From Saccharofermentans sp. (GTDB taxonomy: Bacteria > Bacillota > Clostridia > Saccharofermentanales > Saccharofermentanaceae), in the NCBI GenBank assembly GCA_024695505.1, contig JAILIB010000182.1, positions 1 through 46,954 on the forward strand: 46,954 bases of DNA. The letters run 5' to 3'. The position numbers and the translations under genes are program-made. Numbering within the stretch: position 1 is the first letter of the stretch; every line of letters starts with the position of its first letter. Shown here in pieces: positions 5,049 through 46,954 of this stretch. The notes beneath the pieces were generated by a model. It saw only the letters and a list, made by a program, of their open reading frames with translations. It had not been told where the DNA came from and made no database searches.

Positions 5049-5105
5049 AAAGGAAAACGAACTTACAGTTTTTTTGTCCCCAAAAATCAAGCATTTATTA
5101 CAAGT

Positions 5106-5129
5106 ATAACGCGCGCGTTATGCTATAAT
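5106..5129 (+). promoter_or_regulatory. Putative promoter with palindromic operator: ATAACGCGCGCGTTAT next to TGCTATAAT (extended -10)
   Basis: 16-bp perfect palindrome at 5106-5121, immediately followed by TGC-TATAAT (-10 at 5124-5129), ~39 bp upstream of the next ORF. Confidence 0.55.
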
Positions 5130-5167
5130 TTTAAACTGAAAAATAATGCGTAGAGGTATCAGTTCTT

Positions 5168-8900: not shown

Positions 8901-10447
8901 GGATAAGGATGAGGTCTCTTGTCGTCGCAATGAACGAGCGTGCTGAGCTCGAGAACGGCGGCGGTACCGTTGAAAAGCTCTATCCTTCGCCTGACGCGCA
9001 GCCTGATGACGCTCCCTACACGATGAGAAGGGTTGAGTTTACAAAGGAGAACAAGAAGAACCACACCATCCTTGCTCCGCAGATGGCACCGATCCAGTTT
9101 GAGTTCGTGGAAGCAGTTTTCCATAAGCACGGATATAAGCTCAAGCTCTTAAAGCAGGCTACAAGGGAAGATATCGAGTGTGGTCTTAAGTACGTCAATA
9201 ACGACGCATGCTTCCCGACGATAATCGTTATCGGCCAGATGATCAACGCGATCCTCAAGGGCGACATCGATCCTAACAACACGACTCTCGCGATCACGCA
9301 GACGGGCGGCGGCTGCCGTGCTACAAACTATGTCGCGTTCCTCAGAAAAGCTCTGAGGGAAGCAGGATATCCGCAGATCCCCGTTATTACGATATCTGCA
9401 CAAAGATTTGAAAAGAATGAAGGCTTTGAATACACTGCCGGTTTCCTCCTTGATGCGGTCAAGGCTTTGAGTTTGGGCGATATGCTCACGACACTTCTTC
9501 TCCGTGTCAGGCCTTACGAGAAGGTCGAGGGTTCAGCCAACGCGCTCTATTCCTTCATCAACAAGATCGGACGCCGCATGCTCAATCCCAAGGGCGTTTC
9601 TGACGACCTTACCGTACGCTATGACAAGATGATGCCTAACAGCTACTATTCGAAATCTCCTGAGCAGAAGAAAAAGATCAGGGACTGCCTTGCCGATATC
9701 GGCGTTGACATGGAGAACGTTCCCGTCATCACGAAGTACAAGGCATTCATCAAGTATGCCGTTCAGAAGTTTAACGCTCTGCCTCTCAGGGACATTCCGA
9801 GAAAGCCGAGGGTCGGACTTGTAGGCGAGATCCTCGTTAAGTTCCAGCCTGATGCCAATAACAACGCAATAGACGTTATCGAGGCAGAGGGATGCGAAGC
9901 GGTTCTTCCGGGCGTACTGGATTTCTTCCTGTACTGTGCATATAACCCGATCTGGCAGGCTGAAAACCTCGGCAAGAGCAAGAAGACCGGATACATCATG
10001 AAGCAGGGCATCAAGTTCCTCGAGTCTTTGAGAAAGCCGATCAACAGGGAATTCAAGGCTACCGGCGGCAAGTTCATGCTTACCGAGAGGATACAGGAAC
10101 TCGCCGAGAAGTCTTCGTCAGTCTTAAGCTGCGGCAACTCCTGCGGTGAAGGCTGGTTCCTGACTGCCGAGATGATCGAGCTCATCCAGGACGGCGTACC
10201 GAACATCATCTGCGCCCAGCCTTTTGCGTGCCTGCCTAACCATGTTACCGGCAAGGGCATGATCAAGGAGCTCCGCCGTCAGTATCCGAATTCGAACATT
10301 ATTCCGATCGACTACGATCCGGGCGCTTCTGAAGCTAACCAGCTCAACAGGATCAAGCTCATGATCAGCACCGCTCATACGGTGAGAAATAAGGAGATCG
10401 AAGACGCGAAAAGATCCGGAAACGCAACAGTTGTCACGGAGGACTGA
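5978..10447 (+). CDS. fused acyl-CoA dehydratase activase / 2-hydroxyglutaryl-CoA dehydratase-like protein (two BadF/HgdC ATPase domains plus DUF2229-like part), 1489 aa
   Basis: Two activase repeats ('YRLGLDIGSTTIKVVLLD', 'PLFLGLDAGSTTTKAVVINT'; 'NGTCAGGTGAFIDQMA', 'NEACSSGCGSFIQTFA') and C-terminal 'QTGGGCRATNYVAFLRKALREAGYPQIPV'. Confidence 0.9.
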   Translation: MDKFYRLGLDIGSTTIKVVLLDDEKIIHSEYRRHHSDVSGLLNELFEELNEKFPGISVDTVITGSGGLSVANWLGLKFTQEVMAETVAIRKYHPETDVIIELGGEDAKITYMHPVLEQRMNGTCAGGTGAFIDQMASLLQTDADGLNNFAKDYRSLYTIASRCGVFAKSDLQPLINEGAAKEDLAASIYQSVVNQTISGLACGRPIKGNVAFLGGPLYFNSELRNAFERTLAEKVDSFWMPDDAQIYVGLGAALSAEGKNPVKLSDLLEKLKNRDGFVPDIIRIDPIFKNEEDKKAFDERHKKDMIPVLEFKDQKGPLFLGLDAGSTTTKAVVINTRGELVYTYYASNKGNPVMSAVTIMKDIYSKMPSDCYIAYSCVTGYGENIIRAALNIDLGEIETMAHFQSAKFFCPDVDFIIDIGGQDMKCMKIRNGVIDSIMLNEACSSGCGSFIQTFAETLGLTTPQFAAAALESRKPVDLGTRCTVFMNSKVKQAQKEGASVGDISAGLSYSVVRNALYKVIKIRDTEQLGKNIVVQGGTFLNDAILRCFELVSNREVIRPNVAGLMGAFGAALIAQKRSKDGSVSKVLGRDDLDSFSMETENTQCPGCTNHCRLTIATFSNGRKFVSGNRCERGEDIALDKDPGLQKEKIPNLFNYKYNRTFRYQPLKLEDAPRGEIGIPRVLNQYENYPFWFTVLTKLGFRVLVSARSSHKLYEEGMETIPSESVCYPAKLAHGHIENLISRGIKTIFYPDVPYENLENRGSNNHYNCPIVCSYPEVIRNNVENLKEKEIRYLNPFMPLDNLDCVAEQLVKIFDYTAVSLKEAKAAVEAGAEEYFNFKEDIRNKGVEILKEMEEKGMKGVVLAGRPYHIDPEINHGIPEMINSLGLAVLTEDAVARPGRLKRPIRVIDQWMYHTRLYEAAAYVITRPDLELVQLTSFGCGLDAVTSDQVQEILESSGKLYTLLKIDEVSNLGAARIRMRSLVVAMNERAELENGGGTVEKLYPSPDAQPDDAPYTMRRVEFTKENKKNHTILAPQMAPIQFEFVEAVFHKHGYKLKLLKQATREDIECGLKYVNNDACFPTIIVIGQMINAILKGDIDPNNTTLAITQTGGGCRATNYVAFLRKALREAGYPQIPVITISAQRFEKNEGFEYTAGFLLDAVKALSLGDMLTTLLLRVRPYEKVEGSANALYSFINKIGRRMLNPKGVSDDLTVRYDKMMPNSYYSKSPEQKKKIRDCLADIGVDMENVPVITKYKAFIKYAVQKFNALPLRDIPRKPRVGLVGEILVKFQPDANNNAIDVIEAEGCEAVLPGVLDFFLYCAYNPIWQAENLGKSKKTGYIMKQGIKFLESLRKPINREFKATGGKFMLTERIQELAEKSSSVLSCGNSCGEGWFLTAEMIELIQDGVPNIICAQPFACLPNHVTGKGMIKELRRQYPNSNIIPIDYDPGASEANQLNRIKLMISTAHTVRNKEIEDAKRSGNATVVTED

Positions 10448-45747: not shown

Positions 45748-46491
45748 ATGAAACTTAAGCGTGTATTAGTTTCTTTGGTAGCTGTTGCCATGACAGTTAG
45801 CCTTGTACCTGCAATGGCTTTTGCTACCGAGGTCGAAAATGACGACGAGACAGCTATCATCGAAGTAGCTGACGCTAAGGCAGAGAATCCTGCTAAGCTA
45901 GGCAACGCTTCTGCTCAGACGGATTGCGGTAAGAACCTTAACTTCACTATCGACAGCAACGGTATTCTTATCATTTCCGGCTCAGGAGCAATGTATAACT
46001 ACAGCTACAAAGAAGGTAAGCGTGCTCCTTGGTATAACAGGCGTGCTGATATCAAGGGCATTAAGTTCTCTGGTAGCATTACATCTATCGGATCTTATGC
46101 ATTCTACTGCCTTACAGGTATTGGTGCAGTCAGCATTCCCAGCAGCGTTACTTCTATCGGAACCGGTGCTTTCAGCTATTCTTCTGTATCCAAGATCTCC
46201 GGCGGTTCTAAGGTTAAGACCATCGGTGCTCGTGCATTCAAGAAGACAACAAAGCTCACTTCTTTCTCTATTTCTTCTAAGTCTTTGTATAAGATCGGTT
46301 CTTATGCATTCCAGTCTTCTGCTGTTAAGACTATCAGCATTTCCAAGACAACTAAGCTTAAGAAGAAGAAGGTTAGAAAGTCTCTTAAGAAATCTAAAGT
46401 TAAGAAGGTTAACGTTAAGAATTCTAAGAAGGTTATTTACAGATACTACTTCTCAAAGACCAACGCCGGCCGCAAGGTTAAGGTTTATTAA
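45748..46491 (+). CDS. secreted BspA-like leucine-rich repeat protein with Lys-rich C-terminus
   Basis: Signal peptide 'MKLKRVLVSLVAVAMTVSLVPAMAFA'; LRR_5-type repeats 'SITSIGSYAFYCLTGIGAVSIPSSVTSIGTGAF'; C-terminal 'KLKKKKVRKSLKKSKVKKVNVKNSKK'. Confidence 0.85.
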   Translation: MKLKRVLVSLVAVAMTVSLVPAMAFATEVENDDETAIIEVADAKAENPAKLGNASAQTDCGKNLNFTIDSNGILIISGSGAMYNYSYKEGKRAPWYNRRADIKGIKFSGSITSIGSYAFYCLTGIGAVSIPSSVTSIGTGAFSYSSVSKISGGSKVKTIGARAFKKTTKLTSFSISSKSLYKIGSYAFQSSAVKTISISKTTKLKKKKVRKSLKKSKVKKVNVKNSKKVIYRYYFSKTNAGRKVKVY

Positions 46492-46513
46492 TCCTTGATT
46501 TAAGTAAAAATTT

Positions 46514-46542
46514 AAGGAGCTGCCTCGTGCAGCTCCTTTTTT
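46514..46542 (+). terminator. intrinsic terminator after the LRR gene
   Basis: AAGGAGCTGC-CTCGT-GCAGCTCCTT followed by a T-run. Confidence 0.92.
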
Positions 46543-46611
46543 CTAAATATAACTAACCGCTATAAAAAAGACGAATTCTAATCCGGCAAAATTCTTTGTA
46601 GCAATTCGGAA

Positions 46612-46867
46612 TACCGTATGATTCCTGAATTAGAGGATTTATACGGTATTTTTCTGTGAATCATCATGATGGATCACTGTTTTTTACCGTATAAGAATGA
46701 GAGACGATAATCCATACGGTAATTTCGGTGAAAAATAAGAATCGATTATCAGAAAATTACCGTATAAAAAGTTGCTGTGATGATTCATACGGTAAAACGA
46801 AAACCAATTAATGAATCAAGGCTCTAAAAATACCGTATGGAAAACATAAATAGGAATTCATACGGTA
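46612..46867. repeat. Four-unit, exact 73-bp-period array of alternating inverted 8-mers: TACCGTAT-N21-ATACGGTA-N36
   Basis: TACCGTAT at 46612, 46685, 46758, 46831; ATACGGTA at 46641, 46714, 46787, 46860. All steps are 73 bp; spacers are always 21 and 36 bp and mutually dissimilar. Confidence 0.95.
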
Positions 46868-46954
46868 CAGCTGCCAGAGTATTTTCAGCGATAAGCTGTT
46901 TATACAGTAGTTTTGAATTCTGTTTGAATATGAGTATCAGATGCTGTCCAGATA

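Follow-up and report, generated by a model that had tools for sequence, protein, structure and literature searches.

Helically phased inverted-repeat arrays paired with a nuclease-like protein family: a putative REP/RAYT-like system in Saccharofermentans and other bacteria

The stretch of DNA analysed here (46,954 bases from a rumen bacterium, Saccharofermentans sp., hereafter the window) contains an array of four spaced inverted repeats that is probably a gene-less, dispersed copy of a REP/RAYT-like yet unrelated system, in which a resident protein of a nuclease family reads its own repeat word. Comparison of sequences reveals that such arrays are associated with genes of this family, that the words of arrays and resident genes match, that the units are helically phased and that arrays are present or absent at the same sites across related species.

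The window array (46612–46867) consists of four copies of TACCGTAT-N21-ATACGGTA joined by N36 linkers, with a period of 73 bp. The four units, each a 37-bp inverted-repeat core, lie at 46612..46648, 46685..46721, 46758..46794 and 46831..46867, and the three 36-bp linkers at 46649..46684, 46722..46757 and 46795..46830; neither units nor linkers are assigned to a strand. An earlier sequence-only reading of this DNA gave eight 8-mers with their coordinates, seven spacers and a 73-bp period, and every one of these was reproduced exactly. The pattern has four matches in the window and none in 100 dinucleotide-preserving shuffles, and its chance expectation is zero. Among 68 distinct TACTT(A/G)CT cores, the outer 12–13 bp are strongly conserved on both sides, reading T-A-C-T-T-R-C-T-G-A-A-A-W on one and its reverse complement on the other. 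What had been described as a 21-nt 'spacer' inside the unit is in sister species itself a core, partly conserved and partly palindromic, with an asymmetric GTTTT at its centre. The word of the window array is a variant of the TACTT(A/G)CT type with an unchanged layout.

The array lies 3' of a gene for a secreted protein (45748..46491, + strand), which we take to resemble BspA-type leucine-rich-repeat proteins and do not think to be part of the array system. It is also downstream of that gene's intrinsic-terminator-like hairpin aaggagctgcctcgtgcagctccttttttc (46513..46545, + strand; read by eye and unscored). The window is the entire contig C129, and its sequence stops 87 bp past the last unit because the contig ends there; a gene may lie directly beyond the contig end, to the right of the array.

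The exact unit TACCGTAT-N21-ATACGGTA occurs nine times in the Saccharofermentans sp. genome (G000), compared with no occurrence of the reversed control pattern. When mismatches are allowed, four arrays of four units each are found, on contigs C129 (i.e. the window), C162, C163 and C66. The C129 and C162 arrays are 82% identical over 318 bp in opposite orientation, and the identity extends into the flanks, by ∼47 bp on the left and ∼12 bp on the right; in the window the duplicated block, which comprises the four-unit array and these flanks, spans 46562..46879 on the + strand. The array has thus been copied as a unit to a second locus. The sequence-only reading had described the spacers as non-homologous, which holds between units of the window array but not between arrays, since the ∼82% identity of the C162 array to the window array includes the spacers. 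The C163 array sits in an lpdA-mraY-like gap that measures 10 to 44 nt in three sister species. The C66 array lies directly 5' of a nuclease-like gene (P0001) and ends ∼30 bp before its ORF (L007:3771-4574); contigs C66 and C155 overlap at their ends, and C155 completes the gene with one more codon and the stop. A block of ∼60 nt (CTATACAAGCAATTCGGTATAATTACAATTTTGGTGAATATAGAAGAGGTAAAAAAGGG) adjoining the C162 array (L008 about 5070-5140, L019) is nearly unchanged between two species, with diverged surroundings. The same genome also carries, on contig C80 (L256), a second nuclease-like gene with another upstream word, GCAC(A/T)TACGAAAT.

The P0001 product is a protein of 269 amino acids whose C-terminal domain is PD-(D/E)XK-like. 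Searching Pfam, NCBIfam and PDB sequences with the protein family gave no convincing match. Alignment of 22, and then 68, relatives contains invariant R-S-K-S-E, D-F and E-H-x-G motifs in a PD-(D/E)XK-like pattern; E166, D197 and E212 are invariant, and the third motif is E-H-x-G in place of E-x-K, without a clear counterpart of the lysine usual there in PD-(D/E)XK. In PADLOC, the C-terminal ∼110 residues of P0001 match PDC-S68 (E 5e-25). The AlphaFold2 model (mean pLDDT 94) predicts a helix, a beta-hairpin, a long helix and a helical linker followed by an alpha-beta domain, with the N-terminal domain standing separate. Foldseek yields weak matches only, including restriction-type nucleases (DrdV and MunI) and XisH, and its matches for the N-terminal part are prefoldin-like coiled coils, also weak.

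Of 59 genomes searched within the genus (Saccharofermentans and its kin), 57 contain the family, with 1–11 copies each and mostly more than one. Relatives are encoded on at least 581 stretches of the genome collection; among the 80 stretches listed are Butyrivibrio and other Lachnospiraceae, Treponema (including the isolates T. bryantii NK4A124 and B25), Fibrobacter MAGs and Faecalicatena. A class-wide sample contains the family in 16 of 292 genomes, from nine genera (E <= 1e-30). With regard to mobile elements, PHROGs gave single-member matches only, at chance level, viral contigs contain one partial relative and the phage search returned one unannotated 4.2-kb metagenomic record. The plasmid search found the C-terminal domain alone, within AAA or RecD-like helicases, and no full-length homologue.

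Most genes of the family have an upstream array of inverted-repeat units with a gene-specific word. Among close homologues almost all have such an array on the 5' side; their words are TACTTACT, TACTTGCT, TACG(G/T)ACT, TGACGGATAA, AGCCGTAA, GACCTACA, CATATAAGG, CTACAGACA and GCATACCAA, among others. A word-agnostic detector, which calls a region that exceeds shuffled controls by a set margin and imposes no condition on spacing, found arrays in 44 of 68 upstream regions, whereas in control regions it called 8 of 60 (further upstream) and 5 of 69 (downstream); about one-third of the loci gave no clear array by this detector. Within the Saccharofermentans clade, the last unit generally lies at most ∼100 bp from the start codon. 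As for a conserved end of the element, no common sequence was found 3' of the stop codon. The architecture with a TAC4T-type word is present in 9 of 87 congeners, and at least two additional phyla have homologous genes with arrays of other words next to them. The pattern is thus not confined to one genome, which the sequence-only reading would have taken as a sign of coincidence or decay, and it is no coincidence. A palindrome, TTGAGACTAGTCTCAA, and further GTCTCAA copies, possibly a promoter or operator region, are seen in many Saccharofermentans loci upstream of the array, ∼300–480 bp before the nuclease-like gene (L028, L033-L039); this (GTCTCAA)-type palindrome is found upstream in the Saccharofermentans clade only.

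Our main result is the helical phasing, according to which the units are read on one helix face, as double-stranded DNA. Same-orientation spacings cluster at 52–53, 63–64, 73–74, 84–85, ∼95 and 106 bp, which corresponds to between five and ten helical turns, and they differ by lineage and are often mixed inside one array. Of 110 distinct spacings (from 46 loci), 81 (74%) are at most 1.5 bp away from a multiple of 10.5 bp, against an expected 29%, and their vector strength was reached by none of 5000 uniform simulations. The best-fitting period in a scan is 10.9, with a broad maximum that takes in 10.5. The structured chain search presupposed helical spacing and was kept out of this test. Spacing by integral helical turns, as in a phased protein-binding array, was replicated in an independent set of 40 further upstream regions, for which 10.5 bp was fixed beforehand: 25 regions had arrays and 45 of 56 spacings fit, with an extra peak at 52–53 bp (five turns) and a Rayleigh p of about 1e-11, which is somewhat optimistic because some loci are related. 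Since the spacings change by whole helical turns, the geometry is set at the DNA level, with sites phased on one helix face. Selected geometry with phased protein-binding sites, one of three options offered by the sequence-only reading, thus gains strong support from the shift of other lineages' periods by whole helical turns.

We also compared the words of arrays and resident genes. Among genomes of the TAC4T type with a visible gene array (G074 and G104 left out), the word of the solo arrays, counted for chosen words only, equals the word of the resident gene in seven out of seven (i.e. G000, G005, G020, G024, G028, G070 and G079). The word of T. bryantii B25 occurs 11 times in its own genome and not once in seven other genomes. 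The proteins of G026 and G005 are 97% identical in the C-terminal part, 52% identical in the N-terminal part and have different words (CTACAGACA versus TACGGACT). Their closest N-terminal relatives share the respective partner's word: G034 (66%) that of G026, and G020 (71%) that of G005. Where protein domains recombined, the word went with the N-terminal domain. Across all loci, the word correlates weakly with N-terminal identity (partial r 0.12, p 0.002 by permutation), and C-terminal identity gives no such relation (p 0.2); relatedness can account for part of this small effect.

The dispersed arrays are intergenic: 11 of the 17 with both neighbours known (one of the 17 being gene-linked) are located between convergent genes, and none of 20 lies within an ORF. 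The site between an rnj-like gene and its convergent neighbour, which we take from its sequence to be relA/ACT, is empty in four species. Its arrays have the word TACGGACT in three species, a CCTACCGACAA-type word in three and other words in two more, and in G060 it contains both an array and a nuclease-like gene. In G083 and G008, too, the arrays at this site have the word of a gene of their own genome. Empty, array-only and gene-bearing states of the same site, together with the short lpdA-mraY-like gap in sister species, show that arrays come and go. No clean insertion junction, exact ends or target-site duplication could be defined at the three loci aligned, which are too diverged by substitutions or are occupied by mixed or other array types.

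Other elements were also seen in the genus. In four species (L155-L157, L159; G028, G079, G106, G070), the rnj/relA site contains a two-gene unit (144 + 184 aa) that, from its sequence, we presume to resemble a PIN-toxin and HTH-antitoxin pair, and in G033, G067 and G024 (L148, L149, L164) it contains an unlike dispersed repeat, CGCACAAGCGAAGCGCGGAGGACTTTGATGCGAGAAATGATCTTTT. A short hairpin repeat, ACAATTATATAAAAACGC...TATAATTGT (L079 about 9090-9166), has many copies in G005, G083, G104, G074 and G085 and is another dispersed element of the genus.

The arrays might alternatively be operators only, through which the gene product represses its own gene, the solo arrays being relics of lost genes that never actively spread. 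The short distance from last unit to start codon, a strong phasing typical of cooperative repressors and the congeneric site with gene and array in G060 and an array alone elsewhere would all fit an operator. However, the window and C162 arrays are mutual copies, flanks included, at different loci and without any gene remnant, congeners hold several solo arrays of one word per cognate gene, and solo arrays prefer gaps between convergent genes; we therefore regard this explanation as unlikely. Sites that organize the nucleoid or chromosome (matS- or parS-like), bound by a host protein and merely shared by the nuclease-like genes, would likewise be dispersed, intergenic and phased, with a spacer sequence that drifts freely. 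Against such sites, the word varies by gene and species and matches the array next to the nuclease-like gene that the genome carries, and there is no host word in common; we hold this reading to be very improbable.

Two further readings treat the array as RNA or as stored inserts. Units that are transcribed and function as chained small hairpin RNAs or guides could account for a stretch that folds far better than shuffles (z = -6.1), but so would any inverted-repeat array, and the predicted fold does not consist of four local hairpins. Moreover, the window array and array locus D come after terminator-like hairpins, an Rfam search gave no match and helical-turn quantisation across lineages has no reason in RNA. 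We regard this explanation as very improbable; the hairpin RNAs suggested by the sequence-only reading do not predict the 10.5-bp quantisation and are unneeded. Fixed spacer lengths with different sequences recall an adaptive or CRISPR-like array with modular inserts. Paralogous arrays, however, share spacers at about 80% and these match and diverge by substitution, which refutes such a reading in the main and tells against the modular inserts proposed earlier. In addition, spacing moves in 10.5-bp steps and not by insert type, and the phage search of the array region, a check that the sequence-only reading had called for, gave no match. We consider a CRISPR-like array extremely improbable.

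Among known systems, REP/REPIN/BIME repeats and RAYT (TnpA-REP) pair a Y1/HUH tyrosine transposase with species-specific inverted repeats (PMC2817692, PMC3116915). The system described here is similar in that a cognate nuclease-type gene goes with an inverted repeat that is found both beside the gene and scattered intergenically, the word changes rapidly and repeat abundance follows the resident gene (in a small sample here). It differs from REP/RAYT in several respects: the protein is PD-(D/E)XK-like, with no HUH motif and no Pfam or NCBIfam match; the array is 5' only, with downstream calls at about background, instead of two flanking inverted REPs; there are tens of units rather than hundreds, with helically quantised spacing; and each unit consists of two ∼12-bp half-sites, inverted and spaced apart, in contrast to the tight palindrome of REP. 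Since neither a Y1/HUH protein nor two-sided repeats are found, the system appears to work like a REP/RAYT pair without being one.

TIGR-Tas arrays have 8–12-nt repeats and 9–12-nt spacers and are read as 36-nt RNAs by a Nop-domain protein (PMC12045711). An alternating two-element short-repeat array beside a nuclease-type gene is common to both, but here the spacers are 21 and 36 bp, the repeats are mutually reverse-complementary and helically quantised, and the associated protein has no Nop family match (1 of 22 members matches IS110, at chance level). Unlike in CRISPR, only 8-bp arms in inverted alternation are repeated and spacers are common to arrays. PDC-S68/RecD-like helicases (PADLOC) share the homologous C-terminal ∼110 residues; the family studied here differs from them in its lack of a helicase part, its N-terminal domain and its array association. 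Iteron arrays of plasmid Rep proteins and operators of cooperative repressors have same-face sites beside the gene of the binding protein. Repeated sites on one helix face adjoining the gene of a putative binding protein are found here as well, but with gene-by-gene words, gene-less chromosomal copies and a nuclease-like domain and, unlike plasmid iterons, with no full-length homologue of the protein in the plasmid search.

Under the REP/RAYT-like explanation that we prefer, the window array would represent four candidate DNA-binding sites, i.e. 37-bp inverted repeats whole helical turns apart and facing one side. The most likely reader is the PD-(D/E)XK-like product of the C66 gene, which has an array with the same word directly upstream. 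The N-terminal domain (helix, beta-hairpin, helix) would read the word, and the C-terminal nuclease-like domain would be exchangeable between paralogues. A complete element would comprise the gene and its cis-array, to which the window array would relate as REP/BIME does to RAYT genes. The protein would bind these sites directly, assemble cooperatively along one DNA face and presumably have nuclease activity, and it may drive the spread of gene-less array copies.

We found no description of this gene-array pairing (in Clostridia, Treponema and Fibrobacter genomes) in the open literature. The chances seem about even that it represents an undescribed class of selfish DNA, unrelated to RAYTs, in which a family of nuclease-like proteins in several phyla, each with a swappable N-terminal reader for its own word, assembles on phased arrays and places gene-less copies of them into gaps between convergent genes. 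For a multicopy bacterial protein family that has no name, sequence alone here points to a probable DNA target. Hundreds of natural protein/DNA-word pairs make two questions testable: how DNA specificity is encoded by a small N-terminal domain, and whether dispersed repeats of the REP kind originated on more than one occasion, with nucleases unrelated to each other. Across phyla, the helical quantisation would be a clean natural record of cooperative assembly on one face of DNA.
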